From: Chromatiales bacterium
Lineage (GTDB): Bacteria > Pseudomonadota > Gammaproteobacteria > Thiohalospirales > Thiohalospiraceae
NCBI GenBank assembly: GCA_026982395.1
Contig: JALSHD010000173.1
Location: forward strand, 1-44,557
Direction of reading: 5' to 3'
DNA length: 44,557 nt
Made by a program: the position numbers and the translations under genes. The notes below the pieces were generated by a model that saw nothing but the letters and a program-made list of their open reading frames with translations, was not told the origin of the DNA and searched no databases. Position 1 is the first letter of the stretch. Each line of letters starts with the position of its first letter. Positions 1-17,222 of the stretch are shown piece after piece.

Positions 1-373
1 CTACCCCCTTGCTGCGCAGAGAGTCCCACACAATCCGGTTGGACGGGAACTCTTCATCGCTGCTGACGATATTGTCGCCCCGGTTCCACTCCAGTCCCCA
101 GGCGATTACGGACAGCCCTTCGGAGGTATTTTTGAGCAGAGCGATATCATCAGCAGCAGGGGCGTTGATGAGAGTGGATAGCTGTGCACGCAGCCGCGCT
201 TCTCTCTCTGCCCAACGAGGGTAGTTACGAGCTCCTTCGGCACCATTTTCCCGGGCGAAGGACTCCACCGCCCGGCAGGTGCGCTGTGGCCAGGGAGCTA
301 CGGCAGCATGATTCAGATAAACAAGATCCGGCTGCAAGGCAAACTCTTCGGCAAGTAACTGTTGTCGGTTCAT
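1..373 (-). CDS. Class V aminotransferase-family PLP enzyme, N-terminal part
   Basis: The reading frame opens at an ATG (373-371) and runs without a stop off the left edge, giving 124 codons of the N-terminus. The start of the protein contains DLVYLNHAAVAPWP, the usual opening of class V (cysteine desulfurase/isopenicillin epimerase-like) PLP enzymes. Further on come LLKNTSEGLSVIAWGLEW and SSDEEFPSNRIVW, typical of the cofactor-phosphate and substrate region of this fold. The catalytic lysine would lie beyond the window, so the substrate cannot be told. It begins 17 bases after the stop of the short CDF gene and is probably the last or a late gene of that operon. Family assignment is firm. 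A specific role such as cysteine desulfurase is not supported. Confidence 0.85.
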   Translation of the reverse strand, partial: MNRQQLLAEEFALQPDLVYLNHAAVAPWPQRTCRAVESFARENGAEGARNYPRWAEREARLRAQLSTLINAPAADDIALLKNTSEGLSVIAWGLEWNRGDNIVSSDEEFPSNRIVWDSLRSKGV

Positions 374-390
374 TCCGGTACTCTATCACG

Positions 391-1002
391 TCAGCCGCCA
401 ACCCGGTTTGCCATTGTCATGCTGGCATCCTTGATTATATGGATCCCGCCACGCACGACAATCACCGCAATCATCAGACCGATAACCAGATCTGGCCAGG
501 ACGAGTTCAGATAGCTTACCAGCACACCACCGGCAATGACCCCGGCGTTGGCGATGACATCGTTTCTGGAGAAGATCCAGCTGGCCCGCATATGCACCTC
601 TCCATGGCGGTGTTTGTGGATCAGCAGCAGGCATGCGCTGTTGGCCGCCAGCGCGATCAGCCCGACCACAATCATGAATGACGGCTCCGGCTCGCTGCCC
701 GTGATGGTACGGCGCAGAATGTCGAACAGTACACCGGCCCCAAGCAGTATCTGCAGTATGCCGCTCACGCGGGCAGCGCTTGCCTTCAGCCGCAGGCTCC
801 TGCCCACAGCGTACAGGGCGATGGCATAGACCGAGGCGTCGGCCAGCATGTCCAGCGAGTCGGCGATCAGGGCGGTGGAGTCAGCGACTATTCCGGCGCC
901 GAGCTCGGCCAGAAACATCACGCCGTTGATGGCGAAAAGTGCGATGAGCGTGCGGCGCTCCTCCCGGTTTCCGATCTCTATTTCACAACCGCAACCGGAC
1001 AT
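391..1002 (-). CDS. Short cation diffusion facilitator-like membrane protein
   Basis: A protein of about 203 residues made only of the six-helix membrane part of the CDF (cation efflux) family, without the usual C-terminal cytosolic domain. The N-terminus carries a Cys-rich motif, MSGCGCEIE. The helix 2 site reads DSLDMLADA (DxxxD), but the helix 5 region reads SRNDVIANAG where classical CDF zinc exporters have HxxxD, so metal ligation is expected to differ. The ATG (1002-1000) shares its A with the TGA of the upstream CDF gene (TGATG), indicating translational coupling; a TTG one codon earlier is also possible. I recall similar Cys-leading short CDF proteins near metal-resistance genes, so this looks like a genuine subfamily rather than a broken gene. 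Ion and direction of transport are unknown. Confidence 0.85.
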   Translation of the reverse strand: MSGCGCEIEIGNREERRTLIALFAINGVMFLAELGAGIVADSTALIADSLDMLADASVYAIALYAVGRSLRLKASAARVSGILQILLGAGVLFDILRRTITGSEPEPSFMIVVGLIALAANSACLLLIHKHRHGEVHMRASWIFSRNDVIANAGVIAGGVLVSYLNSSWPDLVIGLMIAVIVVRGGIHIIKDASMTMANRVGG

Positions 1003-1886
1003 CAACGGCAGACCCTGTTGCAGTGGTTGATCTCGAACTCCAGGGTCGAATGGGCGATGGCGAAGCGCTGTTCGAGCCCTTTTTTCAGGGCGCTCTTTAT
1101 CTGCTCGGTAGCGGCGAAATCGGCGATCACCACATGGGCCTCCAGGGCGTTTTCATGCTCGTCCAGCTGCCAGATATGAACATGGTGGACATTCCTTACC
1201 CCCTCGACCTGCTCCATGGTGGCGATCACCTCATCCACGGAGATCCCTTCCGGCGTTCCCTGCATCAATATGTGGATGGTCTGCGGCAGCATGGTGGCTG
1301 CCTGGTAGAGCACGTAGCCGGCGATCAGCAGGGTCAGGAGGGTGTCGCTCCAGTACCACTCATAGAGCAGGATCAGGCTGCCCGCGACAATGACCCCGAC
1401 CGAGGCCAGCGCATCAGAGACATTGTGCAGGAAGGCGGCGCGGATGTTCATGCTGTGCCTGGACATGGTGTAGGTCAGGATCGCGGTGGCGACGTCGATC
1501 ACCAGTGCAATCGCGGCCACGATGACTACCGTCCACCCCTCGATGATCTGCGGCTCATACATGCGCCACAGCGCCTCGTAGATCAGATAGAGTCCGACAA
1601 TCACCAGCGTGACCAGATTGATCAGCGCCGCGATCACCTCGGCCCGCTTGTAACCGAAGGTCTTGAAGTGGTCCGGCGGCTGTCTGCCGATACGGCGCGC
1701 CACCCAGGCGATCAGCAGTGACGCGGCATCGCTGAAGTTGTGCAGGGCATCGGCGATCAGGGCCAGACTGCCGGAGACGATGCCGCCCACCACCTGCGCC
1801 AGGGTCAGCAGCATGTTGATGGCGATGGCCCACCCCAGGCGGCGGTCGCCCATCGCCTCTACGTCGTGACTGTGGTCATGTCCCAT
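1002..1886 (-). CDS. CDF family zinc/divalent-cation efflux protein (CzcD/ZitB type)
   Basis: A 294-residue inner-membrane antiporter-type protein of the cation diffusion facilitator family. It starts with a His-rich metal-binding tail (MGHDHSHD). Helix 2 carries ADALHNFSDA and helix 5 carries HNVSDALAS, both with the HxxxD pattern that forms the transport site of zinc-type CDFs. After the six helices there is a C-terminal cytosolic domain with the MEQVEGVRNVHHVHIWQLD region, as in full-length CzcD and ZitB. A good AAAGGA ribosome binding site lies before the ATG. It follows the RND pump gene after a 155-base spacer holding an inverted repeat and precedes the short CDF with a one-base overlap. 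The likely role is moving Zn(II), perhaps Co(II) or Cd(II), from cytoplasm to periplasm, where the tripartite pump could take over. Confidence 0.92.
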   Translation of the reverse strand: MGHDHSHDVEAMGDRRLGWAIAINMLLTLAQVVGGIVSGSLALIADALHNFSDAASLLIAWVARRIGRQPPDHFKTFGYKRAEVIAALINLVTLVIVGLYLIYEALWRMYEPQIIEGWTVVIVAAIALVIDVATAILTYTMSRHSMNIRAAFLHNVSDALASVGVIVAGSLILLYEWYWSDTLLTLLIAGYVLYQAATMLPQTIHILMQGTPEGISVDEVIATMEQVEGVRNVHHVHIWQLDEHENALEAHVVIADFAATEQIKSALKKGLEQRFAIAHSTLEFEINHCNRVCR

Positions 1887-1941
1887 TCGTGTTTATCCTT
1901 TGTGGTCACTTGCCCTGCTGAGGCGCACAAGGCAATAGCAT

Positions 1942-2031
1942 GCACCATGAAGAGCATAAAAGACATGAAGGCATTTCGCCGGATATGCTGTCACAACTTG
2001 CCTTTTCAGCTCTTCATGCCCTTCATGGTGC
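1942..2031. repeat. Imperfect inverted repeat between czcA-like and CDF genes
   Basis: GCACCATGAAGAGCATAAA (1942-1960) is matched on the opposite strand by 2013-2031, with 17 of 19 bases pairing and about 52 bases between. The arms contain the CATGAAG word twice in slightly different registers. This looks like a dispersed intergenic repeat unit rather than a terminator, since no T tract follows on either strand. The transcript across it could fold and set a different expression or stability level for the CDF genes relative to the pump. Confidence 0.6.
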
Positions 2032-2041
2032 AAATAGCTCC

Positions 2042-5000
2042 CTACCGCATATCCGCCAGTTTACCTCTGGAGAACCAGGTATAAAGAGATGGCAGCACGA
2101 ACAGCGTCAGGAATGTCGCGGTCAGCAGTCCACCCACGATTACCGTGGCCAGCGGTTTCTGAATCTCCGCCCCGACGCCGGTGGAGAGCAGCATGGGGAT
2201 CAGCCCCAGTGCGGAGGTGATGGCGGTCATCAGTACCGGACGCAGCCGGGAGGTTGCGCCGCTGAACACCGCTTCGTTCACCGCCAGGCCGCCGGCGATG
2301 CGCTGGTTGATGCTCTCCACCATCACCACGCCGTTGAGTACCGCCACGCCGAACAGGGTGATGAAGCCGATGGAGCTGGGTACCGACAGATACTGGCCGG
2401 AGATGTAGAGCGAGAATACGCCGCCGATGACTGCCAGCGGCACGTTGACCAGGATGAGCAGCGCCTGTCCCACCGAGTTGAACGCAAAATAGAGCAGCAG
2501 GGCGATCAGCGCCAGTGACAGCGGCACCACCATGGAGAGTCTTTTCTGCGCCCGTTGCTGGCTTTCGAACTGGCCGCCGATATCCACCGAGTAGCCCGGC
2601 GGCAGCTCTACCTGGCTGTCGATGGCCTCTCTGATGTCGGCCACCACGCTGCCCATGTCGCGCCCCTGGACGTTGGCCTGGATCACGACCCGCCGCTGGA
2701 CATCGTCGCGGCGCACCTGCGGCGGACCCGACTCGATGCTGATTCGGGCGACATCCCCCAGCCGCACCCACGGCCCGGTGGGGGATTGCAGGCGCAGGTT
2801 GGCGATGGTGTCCGGATCGGCGCGGAACTGCGGGGCGAGGCGCACGTAGATATCGTAACGCTCGTTGCCGTTGATGATCTGTCCCGCCGCGCGGCCGCCC
2901 AGGCCATCCCTCACCACCGCCATCACATCGCCCACCGCCAGTCCGTAGCGGGAGAGCTGGCCCCGGTCCGGCCGGACCACCAGCTGCGCCTCTCCGGCGA
3001 TCTGCTCCATGGCCACATCCCTGGTGCCGGCGATCCCCTGGATAACCTTCTCGATCTCCTGCCCCTTCTCCGCCAGCACCGCCAGGTCGCGGCCAAACAG
3101 CTTGATGGCCAGCTGCGCCCGGACGCCTGACAGCAGCTCATCCACCCGGGTGGCGATGGGCTGGGAGAAGTTGAGCAGCAGGCCGGGGTGCTGCTCCAGC
3201 TTTTTCTCCATCAACAGCTGCAGCTCCTGCCGGTTGCTGGCGCTGGTCCACTCGCTGACCGGTTTCAGACCGATATAGATCTCGATGTTGTTGACCGGCT
3301 CCGGATCGCCGCCGATCTCCGGGCGGCCGATCCGGCTCAGGGCGTAGTTGACCTCGGGGAACTCCAGCAGCATCGCCTCCAGTTTGGGAGCCACCTCCAG
3401 GGTGGTCTTCAGGCTGGAGGAGGGGGCCAGGGTGACGCGCAGGTTGATGGTTCCCTCCTCGAGCTCGGGAACAAACTCGGTGCCCAGCCGGGGGAGCAGG
3501 GCGAGTGCAGCGATCAGCAGAAGCAGCGCACTGCCGGTTACCACCCTGGGCCTCTGCAGCGCCCAGCCGAGACCGCGCCGGTAGAGGTTGTCCAGCGGCT
3601 TCAGGACGAAGCTCTCCTTCTCCCGGATCCCGCTGCGGAACAGGTAGCTGGCCAGTGCGGGCACGATGATGAGCGCCACCAGCACCGCTGCCACAATCGC
3701 CAACATGATGCTGATCGCCATGGGTTGAAACAGCTTCGCCTCCACCCCCTCGAAGGTGAACAGCGGCATGAATACCACCAGGATGATGGAGGCGGCGAAG
3801 AATATCGGGCGCACCACCTCCTTGCCCGCCTCCTGCAGGCGCAGGGCGATGCCGTGGCGATCGTTTCCGACATCGTACGGATCGGGGTCGTCACCGCGAA
3901 CCAGCGCGCGCAGATCCTTCTCGTGCGCGGCGTCAGGGTGGGAGAGATGCTTGAACATGTTGTCCACCATCACCACCGAGCCATCCACCAGCATGCCGAT
4001 GGCGACCGCCAGCCCCCCCAGCGACATCAGGTTGGCGGAGAGCCCGAACCAGGCCATGATCATCAGCGCGATGCCGATGGAGATGGGGATGGAGATCAGC
4101 ACCAGGAAGGTGGCGCGCAGGTTCATCAGAAACAGCGCCAGTACCACGATGATGAACACGAAGGCCAGCAGCAGAGCGTTGACCACCGTCGTCACCGCCT
4201 GGCTGATCAGATCCGCCTGGTCATAGAACGCCTCGAAGCGCACTCCCTCCGGCAGCGCCTGCCGGATCAGGGTGGCGCGTTCGTTGATACCGTCGATGGT
4301 GGCCTTGGTGTTGGCGCCCATGCGCTTCAGCACGATACCTGCGACCACCTCGCCCAGCGCCTCCGGCTCGCCCCCGGCATTCCGGCGGGTCATGGTCACC
4401 GCCCCCTGGCGGATCTCGCTGCCCAGCTCCACGGTGGCTACCTGCGCCACCGTCACCACCGTCCCATCGATGGTCTTCAGCGGGATCTGGCGCAGCTCCT
4501 CCAGCCCCTGCTCGTCATGGCCGAGCCAGCCGACGCCGCGGATCACCAGCTGCTCCTGACCCCGATCCATGTACCAGCCGCCGGCATTGCTGTTGTTGTT
4601 CTCCAGCGCATCCACCACATCCTGTTGGCTCAGGCCGTAGGCCAGCAGCCGGGAGGGATCTAGGTTGACCTGGTACTGCCGGACATGGCCGCCGAATGAC
4701 AGCACATCGGTCACCCCGTCCACCGGCATCAGCAGCAGTTTGACCACCCAGTCATTGAGGCTGCGCAGCGCCATGGCGTCGTACCCGGCATCCTCGTCGG
4801 CCACCAGCAGATACTGATAGACCTGCCCCAGACCGGAGGTGTTGGGACCGATCTCGGGCGTGCCGACCCCTTCCGGGATCAGCTCTTTCGCCGACTGCAG
4901 CCGCTCGAACACCAGCTGGCGGGCGAAGTAGATATCGGTTCCTTCCTTGAACACCACGGTGATACCGGACAGGCCGGTCTTGGAGATGGAGCGCACCTCC

Positions 5001-5239
5001 TCCACGTCGGGCAGCGCATACATCACCGCCTCGATTGGGAAGGTGATCAGCTGCTCCACCTCCTCGGGCGCCAGCCCGGGGGCCTCGGTGTTGATGGACA
5101 CCTGCACATTGGTGACATCGGGAAAGGCATCCAGATTCAGTTTCGGAATAACAAAGAAGGCGGACGCAATCAGCGCCAGCAGGGCAATCACCACCAGCAA
5201 CCGGTTGGTGACCGACCAGTCGATCAGACGATTCAACAT
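2042..5239 (-). CDS. czcA: Heavy-metal efflux RND transporter, CzcA/CusA family
   Basis: A 1065-residue inner-membrane pump of the HME-RND family, the proton-driven part of a tripartite efflux complex. Length and layout match the family: a first helix (IDWSVTNRLLVVIALLALIA), a large periplasmic porter loop, helices 2-6, a second periplasmic loop, and a final helix group ending in FSRGKLADMR. The helix 4 motif reads AIGMLVDGSVVMVDN. Compared with the CzcA triad (DFG...D...EN), the first Asp is replaced and the last Glu is Asp, so the metal is not necessarily the Zn/Co/Cd of CzcA and the symbol denotes family only. Its start lies 14 bases after the membrane-fusion gene. The operon context with His-rich CzcB and two CDFs argues for a metal, not a drug, substrate. 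Confidence 0.93.
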   Translation of the reverse strand: MLNRLIDWSVTNRLLVVIALLALIASAFFVIPKLNLDAFPDVTNVQVSINTEAPGLAPEEVEQLITFPIEAVMYALPDVEEVRSISKTGLSGITVVFKEGTDIYFARQLVFERLQSAKELIPEGVGTPEIGPNTSGLGQVYQYLLVADEDAGYDAMALRSLNDWVVKLLLMPVDGVTDVLSFGGHVRQYQVNLDPSRLLAYGLSQQDVVDALENNNSNAGGWYMDRGQEQLVIRGVGWLGHDEQGLEELRQIPLKTIDGTVVTVAQVATVELGSEIRQGAVTMTRRNAGGEPEALGEVVAGIVLKRMGANTKATIDGINERATLIRQALPEGVRFEAFYDQADLISQAVTTVVNALLLAFVFIIVVLALFLMNLRATFLVLISIPISIGIALMIMAWFGLSANLMSLGGLAVAIGMLVDGSVVMVDNMFKHLSHPDAAHEKDLRALVRGDDPDPYDVGNDRHGIALRLQEAGKEVVRPIFFAASIILVVFMPLFTFEGVEAKLFQPMAISIMLAIVAAVLVALIIVPALASYLFRSGIREKESFVLKPLDNLYRRGLGWALQRPRVVTGSALLLLIAALALLPRLGTEFVPELEEGTINLRVTLAPSSSLKTTLEVAPKLEAMLLEFPEVNYALSRIGRPEIGGDPEPVNNIEIYIGLKPVSEWTSASNRQELQLLMEKKLEQHPGLLLNFSQPIATRVDELLSGVRAQLAIKLFGRDLAVLAEKGQEIEKVIQGIAGTRDVAMEQIAGEAQLVVRPDRGQLSRYGLAVGDVMAVVRDGLGGRAAGQIINGNERYDIYVRLAPQFRADPDTIANLRLQSPTGPWVRLGDVARISIESGPPQVRRDDVQRRVVIQANVQGRDMGSVVADIREAIDSQVELPPGYSVDIGGQFESQQRAQKRLSMVVPLSLALIALLLYFAFNSVGQALLILVNVPLAVIGGVFSLYISGQYLSVPSSIGFITLFGVAVLNGVVMVESINQRIAGGLAVNEAVFSGATSRLRPVLMTAITSALGLIPMLLSTGVGAEIQKPLATVIVGGLLTATFLTLFVLPSLYTWFSRGKLADMR

Positions 5240-5253
5240 GGTATCTCTCCCGG

Positions 5254-6519
5254 TCAGTGGTTGTGCGGATCGAAGCCGCCCTTGGCCATCTGGGACTGGA
5301 CGAAGAACGCCCCCTCGCCCACGATGGTGGTGCCCTCGGCGATGCCCTCGATCAGCATCCGGTCACCCGCCGTGGCCAGCACCTTCACCTCCTGCGGCTC
5401 GAAACGGCCGGGAGCGGTCTCCACGAACAGCTGCCAGTCGCCGTCGGGGCTGCGCAGGACGGCAGCCACCGGCACCACGATTCCCTCACGTTTCTCCTTG
5501 CCCTCGATCACAACATTGACAAACTGGCCGGGGTGGAGGGAGTCGTCCGGGTTGGCCACCTCCAGATGCAGGGCCAGGGTGCGGGTGGTCTCATCGAGGG
5601 TATGGCGGGCCTGGACAACCTTGCCATCCAGCCAGCGATTCCCCACCTGGATGCGGGCGGGTGAACCGAGGGTGACGCGGGCAGCGCTGTCAGGGGTCAG
5701 ACGGGCCTCTACCCAGAGCACGCTCTCGTCGCTGATCTCCATCAGCAGATGGCCGGGCTCCACCAGCTCTCCCACCACGAAGTCGTCACTGATGACGGTG
5801 CCGTCCTGAAACGAGAGCAGCTGGAACTCTCCGGTGGCGCGGGAGGCATCGCCGGTGCGGATCAGCGAGTCGATCTGTTTTTTGGTCATGCCGTAGGCGC
5901 TGACCCGGGCATAGGCCTGCTGCCAGGCGATCTGGGCGGCAACATAGCGCTTCTCCGAAACCACCTTGCGGCCCAGCTTCTTCACCCGGCGCAGCTCCAC
6001 GTTGGCCTCCATCAGATCCCCCTGCGCCTCCGCCATCTCCACGCTGGAGAGGGTGATCAGCGGCTCTCCCTTGCGGACATGATCCCCGAGCCGGACATGG
6101 CGCTCCATCACCTGGGCAGGAATGCGCGGGGTTATCCGGGTAGTGCGGTAGGCATCGAGCATCACCTCGCCGGGGGAGGTGATCGCCTCGCCCAGGGAGC
6201 TGCGCTTGACCACCATGGTCTCGATACCGGCCATTGCGCGCTGGGCGGCGGTCAGCTCGACATCGCTGGCCTCCTCTCCGTGCCCGTGACCATCGCCATG
6301 ATCATGCCCTCGCTCTTCGTGGCCATCGTCGCTGTGAGCATGCCCCTCCGCAGCGTGCTTGTGCCCTTCGCTGCCGTGATCGTCATGCCCCTCCTCGATC
6401 TCTATGCCGGAGAAGTCATCCATTCCGGCATCCTCCTGGTGGCCATGCTCCTTGCCGGCAAAAGCGGTGGTGGAGGCTGCCATGCCCAGCAATATCAATA
6501 GAATCAGTCTGTTTTTCAT
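5254..6519 (-). CDS. czcB: His-rich periplasmic membrane-fusion (adaptor) protein, CzcB type
   Basis: The adaptor links the RND pump to the outer-membrane channel. The chosen start is the ATG at 6519, giving 421 residues: it has a GGAG site overlapping the end of the upstream gene and opens directly into a signal peptide (MKNRLILLILLGMAASTTAFA). A longer frame upstream has no such support. Residues about 22-90 form an Asp/Glu/His-rich region with many HGH, HDDH and HSDDGH motifs, probably binding metal in the periplasm. Then come the barrel-sandwich halves (TSPGEVMLDAYRTTRI; RLGDHVRKGEPLITLSSVEMA), a coiled-coil hairpin, and the beta-barrel with QVGNRWLDGKVV. The gene lies four bases after the channel gene and 14 before the pump gene, in one operon. 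The His stretch suggests Zn, Co, Ni or Cu handling. Confidence 0.92.
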   Translation of the reverse strand: MKNRLILLILLGMAASTTAFAGKEHGHQEDAGMDDFSGIEIEEGHDDHGSEGHKHAAEGHAHSDDGHEERGHDHGDGHGHGEEASDVELTAAQRAMAGIETMVVKRSSLGEAITSPGEVMLDAYRTTRITPRIPAQVMERHVRLGDHVRKGEPLITLSSVEMAEAQGDLMEANVELRRVKKLGRKVVSEKRYVAAQIAWQQAYARVSAYGMTKKQIDSLIRTGDASRATGEFQLLSFQDGTVISDDFVVGELVEPGHLLMEISDESVLWVEARLTPDSAARVTLGSPARIQVGNRWLDGKVVQARHTLDETTRTLALHLEVANPDDSLHPGQFVNVVIEGKEKREGIVVPVAAVLRSPDGDWQLFVETAPGRFEPQEVKVLATAGDRMLIEGIAEGTTIVGEGAFFVQSQMAKGGFDPHNH

Positions 6520-6523
6520 TTCG

Positions 6524-7795
6524 TTACTCTCCGGAATTCCTGGTCTGTGCGGGGGACGAATCCAGCCACGGTTCGATCTGGCCGGAGGCTGCCAGCCAGG
6601 CAATGGCGGACTGCCATACCTCATTCAGCAGCATGGTTGCGGTTGCCTGGGTATCGATATTCTGTTTGGCCTGAATGAGAAAATCGGTGGCGGTCAGTTC
6701 TCCTGCCTGCCACATCTGCTCCAGCAGCTCCATCTGTTCGCGCTGCGCCTGCCGTCCGCCGGCTCTCCAGACCTGCCAGGCGTGGCTGGTGCTGTTGAAA
6801 CGACCCAGGGCGGCGTTGAGACGGGCCGCGGCCCGGCGTCGGGCATCGCGCCAGGCCTGCTCCGCGGCAGCAGCATCGTGTGCCGCGGCGCGCACCTCCT
6901 CCCGGTAGTTGTTGCGGACGAACAGCGGGATGCCGATGCTCAGTCCCAGCAGCTCATCCGACTCCTCGCGCCCGGCGCGGATGCCGATGGTCGGGTCGAT
7001 TTTTCCCTGTTTCCGGGCCAGTGCGATCCGGCCCTTGGCAGCTTCCATGCGGCTGCGCAGCACCGCCAGCTCCGGCAGGGTGTCGAGCAGCGCGGGATCG
7101 GCGCTCTGCGGCACCGGAACCAGATTTTCGGGCAGCTGCGGCCAGCTCTGCGCCGTCAGCCCGGTGACCGCCTGCAGCGCCGCTTCCGCCTCGGCCAGCC
7201 GGCTCTCGCTGGCCGCCTGCTCCATCAGCGCTTCGCTGTAGGCGACCTGGGCCAGCGTCACGTCCAGCGCCGCGATGTCACCCGCCGCCTGGCGCTTCTG
7301 TACCGTATCGAAGAACGCCTTCATCAACTGACTGCTGCGCTGCGCCAGCGCCCGCATCTCGCGGGCGGTGGAGAGGTCCGCCAGCGCGCCGAGCGTCTCC
7401 GCGGCGGTGTGCTGACGGATCTCCCGCAGCTGAGCTTCGGCCGCCTGAACATCCTGATCGGCAATCCGCACCAGCGCCCCGCGCTTGTCGCTCCAGTCGA
7501 TGGTCTGGCTCAGGCCGAGGCTGGTGGTGTTGACCCCGGTCTGCTCCGCATCCAGCTCCAGCATCGGATTGTGCAGCGGCCGGTCGGCCCCGGCGGCGCG
7601 CGCCCGGGCCGCATCGAGCGCCGCTCGCGCGCCCTGCACGGCCGGGCTCTCAGACCATACCCGCTGTATGAATGCCGGCAGCGCCGGGGTGCTGATTGGC
7701 AGAGCGGCCACTTCGGCCGCAGATTCTGTTTCTGCCCATATCGGCAGAGTGACGCACAGGCACAGGCCTGCGCAAAGAGCTGTTTTTGAAAACAT
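6524..7795 (-). CDS. czcC: Outer-membrane efflux channel (TolC/CzcC family)
   Basis: A 423-residue protein with a signal peptide (MFSKTALCAGLCLCVTLPIWAET). It has the two related outer-membrane efflux repeats of the TolC family, seen as long Ala/Glu/Arg-rich helices with NPMLELDAEQTG and TIGIRAGREESDELLGLSIGIPLFVRNNYREEV. The second of these, with its GLSIGIPLF segment, is typical of CzcC/CusC-like channels. The start at 7795 is chosen because AAGGA precedes it at a good distance and it opens the signal peptide; a frame beginning nine codons earlier exists. The stop lies four bases before the czcB start. The product would form the outer-membrane exit duct of the metal pump. Confidence 0.9.
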   Translation of the reverse strand: MFSKTALCAGLCLCVTLPIWAETESAAEVAALPISTPALPAFIQRVWSESPAVQGARAALDAARARAAGADRPLHNPMLELDAEQTGVNTTSLGLSQTIDWSDKRGALVRIADQDVQAAEAQLREIRQHTAAETLGALADLSTAREMRALAQRSSQLMKAFFDTVQKRQAAGDIAALDVTLAQVAYSEALMEQAASESRLAEAEAALQAVTGLTAQSWPQLPENLVPVPQSADPALLDTLPELAVLRSRMEAAKGRIALARKQGKIDPTIGIRAGREESDELLGLSIGIPLFVRNNYREEVRAAAHDAAAAEQAWRDARRRAAARLNAALGRFNSTSHAWQVWRAGGRQAQREQMELLEQMWQAGELTATDFLIQAKQNIDTQATATMLLNEVWQSAIAWLAASGQIEPWLDSSPAQTRNSGE

Positions 7796-7827
7796 GGCGT
7801 AAATCCTTGCAGATATAACCAACTACA

Positions 7828-7854
7828 CACCACCGGTTATCGGCCGCGGTGGTG
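7828..7854 (-). other. Hairpin between the small His-rich gene and czcC
   Basis: CACCACCG (7828-7835) pairs with CGGTGGTG (7847-7854) across an 11-base loop, in the 78-base gap between the first gene of the operon and czcC. No T tract follows on the minus strand, so it is more likely an RNA-stability or attenuation element than a full terminator. Confidence 0.45.
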
Positions 7855-7873
7855 CAAGCAATATCGGTAAGGA

Positions 7874-8191
7874 TCAGGCGATGGGAGGTCTCAGGTGGGG
7901 AGAGAGGTAACGGAAAGGGATGGCCGCCGCCGGGAAAGCATACACATCCCGGCCTGCCGCCATGACCGGGGTGGTGGTGTCATGGACGATCCCGGTCAGG
8001 TGCGCCGCCCCGTGACAGCCGTGGTTGTCATGGTGCTGATCACTGTCCGGGTGCTGACCGGCATCATCTGCCGCCAGGTCGAACGACGCCGCATCATGCC
8101 CCGCTATCGCCTCGGGATGGCTGTCCCACGCGAAGGCCATCCCCGAACAGAGGTGAACCAGCAGCAACAAGCAGAGCAATAGTTTTTTCAT
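7874..8191 (-). CDS. Small secreted His/Asp-rich protein leading the metal-efflux operon
   Basis: A 105-residue protein with a clear signal peptide (MKKLLLCLLLLVHLCSGMAFA). The mature part is rich in His and Asp (HPDSDQHHDNHGCHGAAH around residues 47-64) with a single Cys, and it ends in PFRYLSPHLRPPIA. Small proteins with such a His cluster and an RPPI-type tail are often found ahead of czc- or cop-type operons, but I know of no assigned function. It most likely binds metal in the periplasm. The gene has no convincing ribosome binding site, and the best promoter puts the transcript start within one or two bases of the ATG. It is first in the order small protein, czcC, czcB, czcA, CDF, CDF. 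Confidence 0.75.
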   Translation of the reverse strand: MKKLLLCLLLLVHLCSGMAFAWDSHPEAIAGHDAASFDLAADDAGQHPDSDQHHDNHGCHGAAHLTGIVHDTTTPVMAAGRDVYAFPAAAIPFRYLSPHLRPPIA

Positions 8192-9877: not shown

Positions 9878-9962
9878 GAGGGTGTTTGATTCTCTTTATG
9901 TATGGTGTTGTTATCGTTGAGTGACGTTTAAACTTTAGGGCACCTACAGTTCGGGGTGAGCA

Positions 9963-11450
9963 TTATTTCCCGGCATGGCTGTCGAACTTCTCTATTGCTG
10001 CTGAAACAAAATCACATACATGCTGGAACTCCTTGTAGCGCTCTTCGTCAAGACAGGCTGCATTCCGGTGACAGTCACAATAAAACATCCCTATTGGACG
10101 ATCTTTCAGGAACATTGACCTGGCAAAAAAACTATCGGCATCCAACGCATTCAGTATTTCGGAGGGCAACAGCTTTTTGAATCTGTCTCTGTTTTCATCG
10201 TTGATCCAGATGCTGACGGGCCTCTCCATCAGCCGGGTAAACAGATGGGGAGGCTGGAGCTCCATATGGAAATGACTGAATTCTGCGCAATCTTCCGTAC
10301 TGCAAACAACTCTGGCTCTCAATCCCTTTTGATCGGGAGTGCAGGCTGCGAATACTACGCGATATAAACCTATTCCTCTGTGCATTCCCTGAACCGCCTG
10401 TTTCATGATGGCGGGAATCGCCGGTGGTTTGTCATGTTTTTCGCTTAACCAGCGAATCGTTTGTTCGAGCACCAGTGGCTGGGGTTCCATATAAACAGGA
10501 GAATGCTCGGCCGGAACGGGTTTTTCAATGGTTGTTTTTTTCCTGGCCGGTATTGAACTCCGGTTCATGGTGTTAATCCGGGGCGGGGGGGTGGTTACCA
10601 GGTATGCCGCAGCAGGAGTGGTTCCGAAAAGCTTATAGGTATTGGCAGCCGCCAGGGCGTTTTGATGGATAATATCTACCATATTGTGATAAGGAAGATG
10701 GAGAAGTTCTGCTGCTTCTTCAATGTATGAGATGGTTTTCTCGGAGTACCAGTCCTGCTCGGCTGATCGGGAAATTTTGTTTGCCAGCAAAATGGTTTTT
10801 ATGCGAGGCTTGTCGGAATTGTCCCGATTGAGGGAATCATGCACCAGTAAAGGCAATTTCCAGAGGTTGGCCAGTTCGATGGAGAGTGTGCAATAGGTAA
10901 AACCGAGGACATGGTGTTGGGCTGCTTCCCGCGACCGATAACCCGTTCCGTGAGTGAGATCTTCAATTTCTTCAGCCTTGTCCGGCTGGAAGGCCCATAC
11001 CGCCATTTCCCCCAGCTCATACAGCAGCGCAGCAGCAAAAACCTCCAGAGGAACCATATCGGCCCTCACTCTGGCCCATGCGGCAGCCTGCGTCGCAGTA
11101 TGGTAAGAGCGGCTGTAGGCGCGCAGCAATCCCTTTCCGGGCTCTTCCTCGGTTGCGGGATCAATGACGTAGAGCTTTCCCGGTATCGATTTCATCCGGT
11201 CCAGGCCAAGCATCATCGCGGCATGCTCAATCGTTGTTACAGGCATACCGAAATGTTGATGTTGCACACTGTTGGCGCAAGTAAACACATGGCATGTGAC
11301 TGCCGGATCACGGCAAACAACATCCGTCAGATATTCGAAAGGGTTGTCTTTTCGGTACAGCGCATCGAGATCGGTTATTGTTCTGTGCAACGCAGGCAGG
11401 TTCTTTCCCTTAATCCACCGTTTAATCCAGTTTTTTGGATTTTCACTCAT
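9963..11450 (-). CDS. HDOD-domain signalling protein with C-terminal GAF-like region
   Basis: A 495-residue protein. Residues about 15-260 match the HDOD domain, an HD-like fold usually without hydrolase activity: LPALHRTITDLDALYRKDNPFEYLTDVVCRDPAVTCHVFTCAN near the start, then IEHAAMMLGLDRMKSIPG and a helical part with LYELGEMAVW where active HD proteins would have His-Asp. A Pro/Lys-rich linker (about 280-320) leads to a C-terminal domain with a GAF-like pattern (RPIGMFYCDCHRNAACLDEERYKEFQHVCDFVSAAIEKF). It is divergent from motA-motB and has a consensus sigma28 promoter upstream, so it probably belongs to the late flagellar regulon and may tune motility or a second-messenger response. The molecular function is unknown. 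Confidence 0.85.
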   Translation of the reverse strand: MSENPKNWIKRWIKGKNLPALHRTITDLDALYRKDNPFEYLTDVVCRDPAVTCHVFTCANSVQHQHFGMPVTTIEHAAMMLGLDRMKSIPGKLYVIDPATEEEPGKGLLRAYSRSYHTATQAAAWARVRADMVPLEVFAAALLYELGEMAVWAFQPDKAEEIEDLTHGTGYRSREAAQHHVLGFTYCTLSIELANLWKLPLLVHDSLNRDNSDKPRIKTILLANKISRSAEQDWYSEKTISYIEEAAELLHLPYHNMVDIIHQNALAAANTYKLFGTTPAAAYLVTTPPPRINTMNRSSIPARKKTTIEKPVPAEHSPVYMEPQPLVLEQTIRWLSEKHDKPPAIPAIMKQAVQGMHRGIGLYRVVFAACTPDQKGLRARVVCSTEDCAEFSHFHMELQPPHLFTRLMERPVSIWINDENRDRFKKLLPSEILNALDADSFFARSMFLKDRPIGMFYCDCHRNAACLDEERYKEFQHVCDFVSAAIEKFDSHAGK

Positions 11451-11537
11451 AAATTTGCTCTTTGCTCTTCAGAGAACCAGTTCATCGTTCGATAACCTAT
11501 TCAACAGAATCAACCTGAAAAAAACCGGTCATACAGG

Positions 11538-11564
11538 TTATCGGCAAAACAGAGTAATGGTTTA
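11538..11564 (-). promoter_or_regulatory. Consensus sigma28 (FliA) promoter for the HDOD gene
   Basis: On the minus strand the sequence reads TAAA (11564-11561), 15 bases, then GCCGATAA (11545-11538), an exact match to the enterobacterial FliA consensus including spacing. Transcription would start near 11531 and give an untranslated leader of about 80 bases before the HDOD start at 11450. The sigma28 gene itself lies about 4 kb away in the same window. Confidence 0.8.
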
Positions 11565-11566
11565 GT

Positions 11567-11585
11567 TCCGCCGGATTATGGCGGA
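11567..11585 (+). other. Small hairpin just before the motA start
   Basis: TCCGCC (11567-11572) pairs with GGCGGA (11580-11585) across a 7-base loop. An AAAGGA ribosome binding site follows and then the motA ATG at 11607. It could act as a 5' protective or translational control hairpin; the stem is only six base pairs. Confidence 0.35.
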
Positions 11586-11606
11586 GATAAAGGAATCTCT
11601 TCAGAT

Positions 11607-12455
11607 ATGAAAATAATTGTCGGAATTTTGATTGTTTCGGCCAGTGTGGTGGGTGGTTACCTGATGGCTCACGGCAAACTGGCAGTTCTTTGGCAACCGG
11701 CCGAATACGTGATCATTTGCGGAGCAGCATTTGGCGCTTTTGTTATTGCCAACCCGGGTAAGGTTATTAAAAACACCATGACGAGCTTCACTGTCTTGAT
11801 GAAAGGCTCACCTTACAACAAGGCGATGTACATGGAGCTTTTGGCACTCATGTATGAACTGTTCAGCAAGGCACGAAAAGAGGGGGTCATGGCGCTCGAG
11901 TCACATATCGATGACCCCGGTAGCAGCGACATATTCAGCAAGTATCCCAAGGTCTCCGCCGACCATCATGCTATGGAGTTTTTGACTGATTATCTGCGTT
12001 TGATAGTAGGTGGAAACATGAACGCCTTTGAACTGGAAAATCTGATGGATATCGAGCTGGAGACTCATCATGCGGATGCACTGAAAACTAGTGATGCAAT
12101 AACTGCCGTTGGTGATGGTCTGCCCGGCTTCGGTATTGTTGCCGCGGTACTCGGGGTAATTATTACCATGGGCTCCATTGGTGGCGATCCGGCCGTACTG
12201 GGAGCGCATGTGGGTGCGGCGCTGGTCGGAACCTTTCTGGGAATCCTGCTTGCATATGGTTTCGTCGGGCCAATGGGAACGGCGGCCGGGGTGATTGCAG
12301 AAGAAGAATCCAAGTTCCTCGCCTGTATCAAGGTTTGCATCATGGCCACCCTCAACGGATATGCACCACCTATCGCTGTGGAGTTCGGCCGCAAGGCTAT
12401 CAGTCATGAGCATCGCCCCGGGTTTTCAGAGCTGGAAGAGCATGTAAAAGGATAA
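11607..12455 (+). CDS. motA: Flagellar motor stator protein MotA
   Basis: A 282-residue inner-membrane protein forming the proton channel of the flagellar stator with MotB. It has two N-terminal helices (MKIIVGILIVSASVVGGYLMAHG; YVIICGAAFGAFVI), a large cytosolic loop with LFSKARKEGVMALESHI (the charged rotor-contact region) and two further helices with GDGLPGFGIVAAVLGVI and LLAYGFVGPMG, which contain the conserved Pro residues of proton-type stators. The length agrees with the long MotA class of about 285 residues. motB follows after 47 bases, so the two form an operon. FliA being encoded nearby suggests class 3 control, but no good sigma28 site is visible on this strand. Confidence 0.96.
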   Translation: MKIIVGILIVSASVVGGYLMAHGKLAVLWQPAEYVIICGAAFGAFVIANPGKVIKNTMTSFTVLMKGSPYNKAMYMELLALMYELFSKARKEGVMALESHIDDPGSSDIFSKYPKVSADHHAMEFLTDYLRLIVGGNMNAFELENLMDIELETHHADALKTSDAITAVGDGLPGFGIVAAVLGVIITMGSIGGDPAVLGAHVGAALVGTFLGILLAYGFVGPMGTAAGVIAEEESKFLACIKVCIMATLNGYAPPIAVEFGRKAISHEHRPGFSELEEHVKG

Positions 12456-12502: not shown

Positions 12503-13567
12503 ATGGACAGTAATGCCGTACAACCAATTATTGTCAAGCGCGTCAAAAAAGGCGGACATGGCGGACACCATGGTGGTTCATGGAAGGTGGCCTACGCAGA
12601 CTTTGTGACCGCCATGATGGCGTTGTTCCTCCTGCTATGGCTGCTGGAGACTACGCCCAAGGAGGATTTGAAGGCAATGGAGGGTTATTTTCAGAGCCCC
12701 AGCATGATTCAGGCAGCGGGTGGAGCCAGTAGCGCGGTAATTGATATGGGAGGAGGGATGGATGCGCCCAAAGGGGAGGGCGGCACCATTCTCAAAACAA
12801 ACCCCAGGGATTCATCATCTGCCACAACTGAAGATACAGATAATCAGAATAAGGGCCGTGAATTTGATGCGTTGATGCAGAAGCTAAAGGAAAACATTCT
12901 GAATCACCCGACCCTGCACAGTTTCAGAGATCAGATCTATGTTGATATTACAGAAGAGGGACTTCGTATTCAGATAGTCGATCAGAAAAATCGCCCGATG
13001 TTCGACTCGGGAAAAGCCAAGCTTAAACCATACGCAAAAGTAATTCTGCGAGAGATAGGAAAGGTGATTTCCGAAGTTCCCAATATGATCAGCATTTCCG
13101 GACATACCGATTCCACACCTTACGCTGGAAAAAAGGATTATAGCAACTGGGAGTTGTCAAGCGATCGGGCCAATACCGCCCGGCGTGAGTTGATCGAAAG
13201 CACGATGGAGGAAGAGCGAATCGCCCGTGTTGTAGGACTTGCGGATTCCGTACCTTTCCTTCCGGATGAACCGGATGCGCCGATAAATCGCCGCATCAGT
13301 ATCGTGGTAACCGACAAAAAAATCGTGGACTCCTTTAATATCAAAGAGCACAAACCCGTTGCGGAGGAGCTTTCCGAACAACTGGAAACAGGGTCGGCCT
13401 TTACCCTGTCTGTGCCGAACAAGAAAAAGGACCAGTCCAGAGCGGAAGTTGAAATTGAAGGGAACAATAAGGGGATCACTCTTAACCTGGATGGGAAAGG
13501 GGAATTTGACGCAAATGCGCTGGAAGAGCGGCTCAGGAAATTGCTGGACAACCCGGAAGGTCACTAG
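12503..13567 (+). CDS. motB: Flagellar motor stator protein MotB
   Basis: A 354-residue protein that anchors the stator to peptidoglycan. The N-terminus has a basic, Gly/His-rich stretch (VKRVKKGGHGGHHGGSW). The single helix begins KVAYADFVTAMMALFLLLWLL and contains the proton-carrying Asp (about residue 34). A linker rich in Gly, Ser and Thr follows, then the OmpA-like peptidoglycan-binding domain with FDSGKAKLKPYAKVILREIGKVI, ISGHTDSTPY and the NWELSSDRANTARREL motif. About 70 residues after the OmpA domain (from about 285) form a polar tail of unknown role that is longer than in E. coli MotB. It follows motA and ends 27 bases before the end of convergent rsgA. Confidence 0.96.
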   Translation: MDSNAVQPIIVKRVKKGGHGGHHGGSWKVAYADFVTAMMALFLLLWLLETTPKEDLKAMEGYFQSPSMIQAAGGASSAVIDMGGGMDAPKGEGGTILKTNPRDSSSATTEDTDNQNKGREFDALMQKLKENILNHPTLHSFRDQIYVDITEEGLRIQIVDQKNRPMFDSGKAKLKPYAKVILREIGKVISEVPNMISISGHTDSTPYAGKKDYSNWELSSDRANTARRELIESTMEEERIARVVGLADSVPFLPDEPDAPINRRISIVVTDKKIVDSFNIKEHKPVAEELSEQLETGSAFTLSVPNKKKDQSRAEVEIEGNNKGITLNLDGKGEFDANALEERLRKLLDNPEGH

Positions 13568-13594: not shown

Positions 13595-14515
13595 TCAGGG
13601 AAGTTCCGACACCATGCGGTAATAGCTCTCCAGACGGCGCCGGTCTATTTCTTCCCGCTCCACTGCGGCAAGAACAGCGCATTGGGGTTCCGTCCGATGA
13701 GTACAGTCCCGGAAACGGCATTGTCCGTCAAACCTCCTGAATTCCACGAAGCCCCTGGCAATTTCGGCAAGCGACATCTTCCCCAACCCGAACTCGCGTA
13801 CGCCGGGGGAATCAATAACCCCTCCACCTTGCGGCAGGCGATAAAGCCGGGCGGTTGTGGTGGTATGCACTCCCTTGCCGCTCGCTTGCGAAAGTTCCGC
13901 TACTCTGGCGTTAATACCTGGCAGCAAGGCATTGATCAGGGATGATTTTCCGACACCGGATTCACCACTGAAAACTGAGTTTTTCCCCCTGATTACTGAA
14001 AGCAGATCATCGAGCCCCCTCTGTTTTTTTGTGCTGGCAAAAATCATCTGGTAACCAATTTTCGGGTAACCGGACAGGCGGCGCTTCAAGTCCACCAGCT
14101 CCTGTTCCGAAAGCAGATCCATTTTGTTAATCAACAGCAGGGGAGTAATGCCGGTATGTTCTGCAGCAACCAGATAGTGATCAATCAGATCATCATTGAT
14201 ACCGGGCGAAGGCGCTGTTACGACAATAATCCGGTCGATATTGGCGGCAACCGGTTTTATTCGGCCACAGGAATCCGGGCGGGAGAGGAGGGTGCGGCGC
14301 TCCAAAAACCGCTCTACCACGCCGTTTCCCCGATGATTTTCCCGCCAGATAACCCGATCCCCGCAAACAACTACGCCCAGGTTACGTCTTGCTACACAAC
14401 GGTGGATTTTTCCCTCCTTGCTTTCGACATCCAGAAAAGAGCCGTAGTTTGCAACCACAACCCCTTCCTGTTCAGGATGTGGGGAAATCTGAGATGAAGT
14501 GCTATTTTTCGTCAT
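13595..14515 (-). CDS. rsgA: Small ribosomal subunit biogenesis GTPase RsgA
   Basis: A 306-residue circularly permuted GTPase that helps late maturation of the 30S subunit. After an N-terminal OB fold (GVVVANYGSFLDVESKEGKIHRCVARRNL) the motifs come in the permuted order: G4 (NKMDLL), G1/P-loop (GESGVGKSSLINAL), G3 (DSPGVREFG). The C-terminus holds the zinc-binding Cys/His cluster (CRFRDCTHRTEPQC). It is somewhat shorter than the E. coli protein, mainly at the N-terminus. It is convergent with motB and divergent from orn, the usual rsgA-orn pairing of gammaproteobacteria. There is no clear ribosome binding site before the ATG. Confidence 0.95.
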   Translation of the reverse strand: MTKNSTSSQISPHPEQEGVVVANYGSFLDVESKEGKIHRCVARRNLGVVVCGDRVIWRENHRGNGVVERFLERRTLLSRPDSCGRIKPVAANIDRIIVVTAPSPGINDDLIDHYLVAAEHTGITPLLLINKMDLLSEQELVDLKRRLSGYPKIGYQMIFASTKKQRGLDDLLSVIRGKNSVFSGESGVGKSSLINALLPGINARVAELSQASGKGVHTTTTARLYRLPQGGGVIDSPGVREFGLGKMSLAEIARGFVEFRRFDGQCRFRDCTHRTEPQCAVLAAVEREEIDRRRLESYYRMVSELP

Positions 14516-14523
14516 GAAAAGGC

Positions 14524-14552
14524 AGGTTAGTCTCTGTTAAACTGGGTGGCAA
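14524..14552 (-). promoter_or_regulatory. Possible sigma70 promoter of rsgA
   Basis: On the minus strand TTGCCA (14552-14547) and TAACCT (14529-14524) are 17 bases apart, placing the transcript start near 14517, two bases before the ATG. The match is moderate, and like the metal-operon promoter it would give an almost leaderless message. Confidence 0.3.
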
Positions 14553-14587
14553 GTCAGATTGACACTATTTTCGGGAGATACATATAT

Positions 14588-15133
14588 ATGGAACCAAACC
14601 GAGACAACCTTATCTGGATTGATTTGGAAATGACAGGGCTGGATACTGTTCAGGATGTCATTATTGAAATAGCTACCGTCATAACCGACAGTCAACTGAA
14701 CATACTCGCCGAGGGACCGGTACTGGCGATCCACCAGGATGAAAAAATTCTGGCTGGCATGGATGAGTGGAACACCTCCCAGCATACCAAATCCGGCCTG
14801 GTGAACCGGGTTCGTAAAAGTAGCATAAACGAGGCTGAAGCAGAGGCACAGACATTAGCCTTTATCGAGCAGTATGTCCCTGCCGGAGCTTCACCCATGT
14901 GTGGCAATAGCATCTGTCAGGATCGGCGCTTTCTGGCCCGCTGCATGCCCCGGCTGGAGGCCTGGTTCCACTATCGCAATCTCGATGTCAGCACCCTCAA
15001 GGAGCTGGCGCGCCGCTGGGCACCAGAGGTTCACAAATCCTTTTCGAAAAACCCTACCCATCTTGCACTGGCTGATATCCACGACTCTATCCGTGAGCTG
15101 AATCATTACCGGGAACACTTCTTGCATCTTTAA
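14588..15133 (+). CDS. orn: Oligoribonuclease
   Basis: A 181-residue DEDDh-type 3'-5' exoribonuclease that degrades di- and short oligoribonucleotides, including pGpG from cyclic di-GMP turnover. The ATG at 14588 is chosen because the protein then begins [19 protein letters not shown] as in orthologues and a GGAG lies upstream; a GTG 14 codons earlier has no support. Motifs in order: IDLEMTGLD (Exo I), [11 protein letters not shown] (Exo II) and [12 protein letters not shown] (Exo III, with catalytic His and Asp). It is divergent from rsgA and precedes a small Cys-rich gene by seven bases. In a genome with a FliA/HDOD motility module its link to c-di-GMP removal is notable. Confidence 0.96.
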
Positions 15134-15140
15134 CTGCAAG

Positions 15141-15320
15141 ATGTCTGAAACCAAGCAATCTGAAAAAATTGACTGCTACAAATGCCAGCATTTTTACATT
15201 ACCTGGCAAGCATCGTTTCCTTACGGCTGCAGGGCGATAGGCTTTAAGTCCCGCCGCAACCCGGCCCAGGAAGTACTTCAGACATCTCATGTGCAATGCC
15301 TGCTTTTTTTGCACAAGTAG
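15141..15320 (+). CDS. Small Cys-rich conserved hypothetical protein (59 residues)
   Basis: An open frame from ATG 15141 to TAG 15318-15320 encodes 59 residues. It contains IDCYKCQHFYITW, then FPYGCRAIGFKSRR near the middle and VQCLLF near the end, four Cys in all, a pattern fit for a small metal site. From memory this matches a short conserved family (DCxxCxHFYxTWxxxFPxGCRAxGFKS) seen in Geobacter-like and proteobacterial genomes, sometimes mislabelled as uracil-DNA glycosylase. It has no glycosylase motifs and the function is unknown. It lies seven bases after orn and about 110 before fliA on the same strand, so it may be co-transcribed with both. The ribosome binding site is weak. Confidence 0.8.
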   Translation: MSETKQSEKIDCYKCQHFYITWQASFPYGCRAIGFKSRRNPAQEVLQTSHVQCLLFLHK

Positions 15321-15430
15321 CGCCGGAATATCGCCGCTCGGATACATGGGGTGTACGTTTTTCCGGCACATGTAGTTAACGCCCGTTGCGGGTCGTGCCT
15401 GCAAGGGGAAACAGCCGTGGAGTTAGTACA

Positions 15431-16156
15431 TTGGGAACAGCAGCAGCTTACAGCAATACAGAAGGGCAAGTCGCTAACATTTCAAATGAACTGGTGCAGA
15501 CTCATACGCCACTGGTGAAACGTATAGCACACCACTTGATAGGGCGATTACCAACCAGCGTAATGGCAGATGACATGATCCAGGCGGGAATGCTTGGTCT
15601 GCTGGATGCTGCCCGGCGCTATGACACCGGCCAGGGCGCCAGTTTCGAGACCTATGCAACACTGCGTATCCGTGGCGCCATGATTGACGAGTTACGCCGC
15701 AATGACTGGGCGCCAAAGTCGGTACATCGCAAGGCCCGCAATCTTTCGGCTGCCGTGCAGGTAGTCGAAAACCGTACCGGCCGGGATGCCCGTGATGAGG
15801 AGATAATGGCCGAAATGGGAATATCTTCAGAGGAGTATCACAAAATATTAAGGGACAGTTGCAACAGCAAGATTTTCAATTTCGATGATCTTGGAACGGA
15901 TACTGATCCCCTGAGCATGATTGCGGGAGGCAGCGCCAACCCCCTGGATGAGCTGGAAGATGAACGGTTTCGGCGCAGACTGACAGAAGCCATAGCTTCA
16001 CTGCCAGAGAGAGAGAGAATGGTGCTATCCATGTATTACGACAAAGAACTCAATCTACGGGAAATCGGACAAATTCTGGGAGTGAGCGAGTCACGGATAA
16101 GCCAGATCCTCAGTCGCTCGTATGCCAGACTGCGAGCCAGACTCAATGATTCTTGA
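15431..16156 (+). CDS. fliA: RNA polymerase sigma factor FliA (sigma28)
   Basis: A 241-residue sigma70-family factor for late flagellar and chemotaxis genes. Region 2 spans ELVQTHTPLVKRIAHHLIGRLP to YATLRIRGAMIDELRRNDWAPKSVHRKARNL, with the FliA hallmark RIRGAMIDELR. Region 3 holds GRDARDEEIMAEMGISSEEY, and region 4 holds LPERERMVLSMYYDKELNLREIGQILGVSESRISQILSRS with the helix-turn-helix. The start is uncertain: TTG at 15431 has GGAG eight bases upstream and gives the family's usual length, while the open frame extends 15 codons further up without support. It usually sits in flagellar operons with flhF/fleN; here its upstream neighbours are orn and a small Cys-rich gene. It should recognise the promoter at 11538-11564. 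Confidence 0.92.
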   Translation: MGTAAAYSNTEGQVANISNELVQTHTPLVKRIAHHLIGRLPTSVMADDMIQAGMLGLLDAARRYDTGQGASFETYATLRIRGAMIDELRRNDWAPKSVHRKARNLSAAVQVVENRTGRDARDEEIMAEMGISSEEYHKILRDSCNSKIFNFDDLGTDTDPLSMIAGGSANPLDELEDERFRRRLTEAIASLPERERMVLSMYYDKELNLREIGQILGVSESRISQILSRSYARLRARLNDS

Positions 16157-16361
16157 GAGAAAAGAATTCTGTCAGTTCCAGGTTATGGGCATTGAACGGA
16201 GCATTCAGGTGATATTTAACATAATACACATTATGCGAACCGAGGAATATCAAAGATTTGGCAAATCGTGAATTTTGTCAAGTTTTTTCTGCTCCGTCCG
16301 TTAATGAATCTAACTGTAACCGTTGATTGATAAATTTATAAAATAAAAAAGGAAATTCACA

Positions 16362-17222
16362 ATGGCGTCTTTATGTCCTGAAGATCTGATTCGGCAAAAT
16401 ATTGAGTTGGCTTCGATGCCGGAAATTATTGTACGGCTTAATCAGGCCGTGGATGATCCTTACAGTACCGCCAAGGATATCAGCGATATCCTGAGTGAAG
16501 ATCCGGCCTTGGCCGCACGCCTGCTACGGATTGTAAACAGCCCGTTTTATGGCTTTCCATCCCAAATCGACACCATTTCACTGGCGGTTACCGTTGTTGG
16601 CACCCAGCAACTGCGACTGTTGGCATTGGCCAGCTCCACTCTCCGCCAGTTTGCCAACCTGCCAAATCAGTTTGTAACCATGGAAACTTTCTGGCGGCAC
16701 AGCTTTTCTACCGCAGTTGTTTCCCGTATTATCGCAAAACTGTCCAGGGAACCGGATGAAGAACAGTACTTCATCGCAGGCCTGCTGCATGACCTGGGCA
16801 GCCTGATTATCTACAGCACCATACCTACCCTGGCGAAAGAAGCAATAACCCATGCCAAGCGGAAAGAGGTTCCGGTATATCAGGCAGAACGGGCAATTAT
16901 CGGTTTTGATCATGCTATGGTTGGTTCGGCCCTGTTGCGTCACTGGAATCTGCCTGAGGCACTGGTTGAGGCTGTGGCTTGTCATCATGAGCTGGGCGAT
17001 ATCAAAATCTGTCCCAAGCACAAGGCCGTCACCCATTTGGCAAATATTGTCGCCAACTCCATCAACCCCGGTTTGCTGTTGTACCGCCAGACTCTTGAGC
17101 CGGAACCACAGGCGTGGGAGCTGGCTGGCCTGGAATCCGACACCATTGATGAGGCACTGGACGATATAGAAAAAGAGATCAACGAAGCGATTTCTGCCTT
17201 TTCACTGAATAGTGTTGCATAA
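16362..17222 (+). CDS. HDOD-domain protein
   Basis: A 286-residue single-domain HDOD protein with AAGGA before the ATG. The opening has IELASMPEIIVRLNQAVDDPYSTAKDISDILSEDPALAARLLRIVNSPFYGFPSQIDTISLAVTVVG-type sequence, the standard HDOD signature (given here by its N-terminal LASMPEIIVRL and central LLRIVNSPFYG motifs). Unlike the first HDOD protein, it keeps the His-Asp pair in FIAGLLHDLG and a CHHELG motif later, so metal binding or hydrolase activity cannot be excluded. No extra domain is visible; the last 40 residues are acidic and helical. It lies 205 bases after fliA on the same strand, perhaps with its own promoter. A role near motility or second-messenger signalling is inferred from position only. 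Confidence 0.88.
   Translation: MASLCPEDLIRQNIELASMPEIIVRLNQAVDDPYSTAKDISDILSEDPALAARLLRIVNSPFYGFPSQIDTISLAVTVVGTQQLRLLALASSTLRQFANLPNQFVTMETFWRHSFSTAVVSRIIAKLSREPDEEQYFIAGLLHDLGSLIIYSTIPTLAKEAITHAKRKEVPVYQAERAIIGFDHAMVGSALLRHWNLPEALVEAVACHHELGDIKICPKHKAVTHLANIVANSINPGLLLYRQTLEPEPQAWELAGLESDTIDEALDDIEKEINEAISAFSLNSVA

Follow-up and report, generated by a model that had tools for sequence, protein, structure and literature searches.

We detected a putative sigma-28 (FliA-family) promoter upstream of a gene for an HDOD-GAF protein, at positions 11538–11564 on the minus strand of the 44,557-nucleotide stretch of Chromatiales DNA analyzed here (the window), and we put the probability that it is a real promoter, placing this gene in the late flagellar regulon, at about 0.85 to 0.9. 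The site is an exact consensus, TAAA-N15-GCCGATAA: the −35 element TAAA lies at 11561–11564 and the −10 element GCCGATAA at 11538–11545, with a spacer of 15 bases between them (minus strand from 11564 to 11538, TAAACCATTACTCTGTTTTGCCGATAA), and 12/12 specified bases match. Between the promoter and the start codon (ATG at 11450) of the HDOD reading frame (9963–11450, minus strand) lie 87 bases, a suitable promoter distance. A preliminary description of this DNA had claimed a full consensus on the minus strand, 80–90 bases before an HDOD gene divergent from motA–motB, and each of these points held. A search for sigma-70-type promoters at 11300–11700 found none.

Base composition predicts about 0.004 exact copies of the motif in the window, where one was observed, and about 0.23 in the 2.72-Mb genome, where there are 10; the reversed pattern, used as a control, has no exact copy in the genome. 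Looser matches are common (12 in the window with up to two mismatches, 2.45 expected), so weak matches mean little, while an exact one does count. Seven of the 10 exact genomic sites fall within about 130 bases upstream of a reading frame, and their targets are this HDOD gene, fliA (with its site inside the end of fleN), flgM, and MCP-type, porin-like, glycogen phosphorylase, and dUTPase-like genes; flgM and FliA were identified by NCBIfam, and the MCP, porin, phosphorylase, dUTPase, and fleN names come from reading translations. The exact motif thus occurs far more often than expected and picks out known late flagellar genes, in a regulon that we sampled through pattern search only. The other three either run antisense within a gene or stand well away (458 bases) from a gene start, so an exact match alone does not prove gene control. 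Compared with FliA late flagellar promoters of the E. coli type (TAAA-N15-GCCGATAA), the elements and spacing are identical and are conserved here too; other copies in this genome precede flgM, fliA, and the MCP gene, whereas the predicted target at this locus is an HDOD-GAF gene.

Exact sites in relatives likewise precede flgM, fliA, and MCP genes, as well as pilin-like genes. Those before type IV pilin-like genes (loci L101, L102, L121, and L125, in three congeners) have partly shared spacers. The glycogen phosphorylase gene glgP was considered as a conserved sigma-28 target and rejected, its exact site occurring only in two sibling genomes. Next to the HDOD gene, a weaker sigma-28-like site (9911–9937, minus strand, 10/12) lies before a gene for a GH100 neutral invertase; it is present in three congeneric genomes including this one, matching 11/12 in one of them, and the others are without it.

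Conservation within the genus and a site facing motA

We compared the intergenic region between the HDOD gene and motA across the genus, using seven genomes besides the window's own. The region is complete in five genomes (own included), and the HDOD promoter matches at 12/12 bases in all five; the search of related genomes for this promoter before the orthologue, proposed in the preliminary description, therefore returned it wherever the region was complete. Pairwise identity over these five is 100% for the motif and 59% for the spacer, and the only invariant runs of at least five columns in the alignment are GCCGATAA and TTATCGAAC. The claimed link to the late flagellar regulon is accordingly upheld as far as sequence conservation goes, and its expression side stays a prediction. 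In one congener, G006 (96% complete), neither motA nor this HDOD gene was found, for which an assembly gap is a possible cause.

The second invariant run, TTATCGAAC, is GTTCGATAA when read toward motA, and it suggests that motA probably has a weaker sigma-28-type promoter of its own, facing that of the HDOD gene, at 11469–11495 on the plus strand (TCAG-N15-TTCGATAA). The −10 run GTTCGATAA is invariant in the five complete regions and is also present in a sixth, truncated one; the −35 element is poorer (TCAG, with TAAA in one congener), and the whole site reaches a 10/12 match in one congener. A permutation test of the motA-facing motif gave 36/1000 in the genus and 0/1000 outside it. If both promoters are used, the predicted HDOD and motA transcripts would overlap at their 5′ ends, over a few tens of bases. 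We also considered TCAGAG-N12-GTTCGATAA as a second consensus class, one for the second sigma factor described below, and rejected it: with one mismatch allowed it occurs only before motA, in 3/7 genomes.

A second FliA-family sigma factor beside motAB

The genes on the far side of the intergenic region include a FliA-family sigma factor. Reading rightward, motA (11607–12455, plus strand; TIGR03818, E 6e-121) and motB (12503–13567, plus; NF006548, E 9.7e-106) are followed by three conserved neighbors: rsgA (13595–14515, minus; NF008931), an exonuclease-family gene assigned as orn by family and position (14546–15133, plus; Pfam RNase_T and synteny), and a reading frame for a small Cys-containing protein (15142–15321, plus; from sequence, and by tblastn in congeners). 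The sigma factor gene itself, which we call fliA2, occupies 15431–16156 on the plus strand; its reading frame opens mechanically at 15386, and the likely start is a TTG at 15431. The genome encodes two FliA-family genes along with flgM. The preliminary description had placed fliA itself in this window, which is right as to family, since FliA2 scores 298 bits against the NCBIfam FliA model NF005413 (cut-off 201), but not as to the gene: the canonical fliA is on contig C164, between fleN and cheY and with its own exact sigma-28 site, and FliA2 is a paralogue from a separate clade.

The two proteins are identical at 124 of 236 aligned residues, and in a tree FliA2 and its relatives form a group apart from the fleN–fliA–cheY copies. 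Both types are carried by 6/7 sampled congeners and by 3/4 other family members, the fourth of which (G008) has, at the cut-off used, the second type alone, and FliA2 is linked to motAB–rsgA–orn across the family. Region 4.2 reads SQILS in FliA2, where Leu replaces the usual His, and SQIHS in FliA1. The two resemble each other in region 2.4, so both copies could read the HDOD promoter. Titles and abstracts in the open-access literature yielded no previous description of a second FliA linked to motAB.

Downstream of the sigma factor gene is a second HDOD gene (16362–17222, plus; 286 aa; Pfam HDOD, E 7.1e-65), which appears to have a conserved sigma-28-like promoter at 16278–16304 on the plus strand (TCAA-N15-TCCGTTAA), 57 bases before its ATG. 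The spacing of 15 is kept in 6/6 genus genomes, and 2/1000 permuted motifs were as good; the evidence is weaker than for the first gene.

Several other features of the window were observed. Between the small reading frame and fliA2 (15322–15430) is a conserved inverted repeat, GCCGGAA...TTCCGGC, possibly an RNA hairpin. Between fliA2 and the second HDOD gene (16214–16241, plus) lies a dif-like sequence, ATTTAACATAATACACATTATGCGAACC, conserved in six genus genomes and matching the E. coli dif site at 26/28 bases, where shuffled sequences give an expectation of 0; the replication terminus probably lies within the window. Positions 1–8000 have a G+C content of 0.62–0.65, compared with about 0.50 elsewhere in the window, and carry RND efflux and cation efflux genes; this segment looks like an acquired metal-efflux island.

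The HDOD-GAF protein and its linkage to stator genes

The product of the first HDOD gene is a protein of 495 aa with an HDOD domain followed by a GAF fold, in agreement with the HDOD-GAF-like label it had been given. Pfam HDOD (PF08668) matches residues 18–207 (E 1.7e-20; 73.8 bits, cut-off 22.9). In an AlphaFold model (mean pLDDT 83.9), the N-terminal part matches HDOD structures and the C-terminal part matches GAF domains, including phytochrome GAFs and the GAF-like piece 3oov (sequence profile 2.7e-6; Foldseek TMt 0.71); the Pfam GAF models themselves gave no match. The conserved H, HD, and D metal ligands of an active HD phosphohydrolase are not retained: in place of the HD doublet this protein has YE, family members vary at these positions, and the last ligand, an Asp, is absent. 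The GAF part, in turn, keeps GxFYxD unchanged across 29 sequences. This combination fits a soluble, probably non-enzymatic protein that senses or binds rather than catalyzes.

HDOD proteins have been connected with motility before. SadB controls motility and swimming and binds c-di-GMP (PMC6543031), PSPTO_4229 alters swimming (PMC11813219), as do PFL_0554 and PFL_5871 of P. protegens (PMC11004494), and in passages of two of these papers, loss of Campylobacter Cj0248 (1vqr), Xanthomonas GsmR, or PSPTO_4229 changes motility (PMC11004494, PMC11813219), with none of the three reported there as sigma-28-dependent or stator-linked. The window protein shares the HDOD domain with Pseudomonas SadB (PDB 9qzk; Maqu_0641, 3mem) but differs in architecture: SadB has a YbaK-like domain and then HDOD, whereas the window protein has HDOD (from residue 18) and then GAF, with no YbaK-like N-terminal domain, and there is no global fold match to the SadB structures (TM about 0.3). 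The proteins 1vqr and PSPTO_4229 are shorter, at 297 and 273 aa. A search of the open-access literature turned up no previous description of an HDOD-GAF family controlled by sigma-28 or linked to stator genes, and no useful paper on PA4955.

Scanning the HDOD alignment against 84,980 species genomes yielded 80 loci, and in 33 of these, in gamma- and betaproteobacteria, motA and/or motB is close to the HDOD relative (17 in the divergent arrangement seen here, 16 collinear). Of the divergent loci, 13 lie outside the genus, and in these the sigma-28 motif beats all 1000 permuted motifs in both directions; near-consensus sites face the HDOD gene in some of these loci and motA in others, and in Thiohalomonas denitrificans an exact 12/12 site faces motA. 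The collinear order, in Sulfuricella-like betaproteobacteria, is motA, motB, one gene without an assigned family, and HDOD. At the Sulfuricella locus this intervening gene encodes a 301-aa protein with no Pfam match (L139:6081-6986), and the other collinear loci have a gene-sized gap at its position. Sigma-28 control of these collinear operons was considered and rejected, the motif before motA being not clearly enriched (39/500); linkage of the genes thus extends further than the promoter does. Many HDOD relatives do not adjoin motAB, for instance in Thiodiazotropha and Aromatoleum. A Pseudomonas counterpart (PA4955 or PFL_0554) was also sought and set aside, there being no Pseudomonas among the 80 loci.

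Alternative readings and biological meaning

That the match is chance or non-functional sequence is very improbable: the genome does hold some antisense and distant copies, but the excess of 10 copies over an expected 0.23, with none in the control, and the invariance of the motif in five congeneric genomes despite a diverged spacer both speak against it. A real promoter might still be read mainly by FliA2, encoded 4 kb away, making motAB, the two HDOD proteins, and perhaps other genes a separate module. The separate, supported clade of FliA2, kept in 6/7 congeners and four other family members with its motAB–rsgA–orn linkage, is in keeping with this, as are its altered region 4.2 and a locus (L188) where a FliA gene and an HDOD relative are divergently arranged and a near-consensus site is present; we nonetheless find it doubtful, as the HDOD promoter is the canonical consensus common to flgM and fliA of the main cluster, and the genomes of the genus do not hold repeated copies of a second consensus elsewhere. 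The fuller version, a duplicated sigma-28 system in which an old motAB-linked paralogue would control a small module of stator genes and two HDOD proteins apart from the main FliA regulon, is more unlikely again.

The sigma-28 promoter does not in itself say what the HDOD-GAF protein acts on. The preliminary description took the promoter to predict action on motor or second-messenger output rather than on chemotaxis, which does not follow: exact copies of this promoter also stand before an MCP gene, flgM, and fliA, so the promoter cannot tell the two apart. The product might instead regulate flagellar gene expression or chemotaxis, a reading to which we give a smaller but appreciable chance; GsmR and SadB, both HDOD proteins, have an effect on flagellar gene expression (PMC6543031), and the sigma-28 regulon includes chemotaxis genes, but the repeated linkage is to motAB and not to che or fle genes. 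We lean toward a motor role because HDOD relatives are linked to motAB in many lineages.

Sigma-28 acts once the hook-basal body is complete and FlgM has been exported. In our proposed account, FliA would use the site at 11538–11564 in cells, and the HDOD-GAF gene would be transcribed at a late stage of flagellar assembly, together with the divergent motAB; the GAF domain would sense a small ligand, perhaps a nucleotide or similar, and the HDOD domain would relay this state through protein contact, with the MotAB stator, or stator expression or regulation, as the most likely target. We hold this combined account, late sigma-28 transcription of a sensing protein that tunes the stator or its regulation, to be somewhat probable, and its motor step on its own to be about evenly balanced.

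HDOD proteins occur widely; effects on motility are known for several, by a mode of action that is unsettled. Tying an HDOD-GAF family to the late sigma factor and to stator genes would point to MotAB as a concrete, testable target for such proteins and to late assembly as the time when they act. Within this family, the retention of a FliA paralogue beside motAB also invites the question whether a dedicated sigma factor serves the stator genes; were the duplicated system real, motor output could be adjusted independently of flagellum building.
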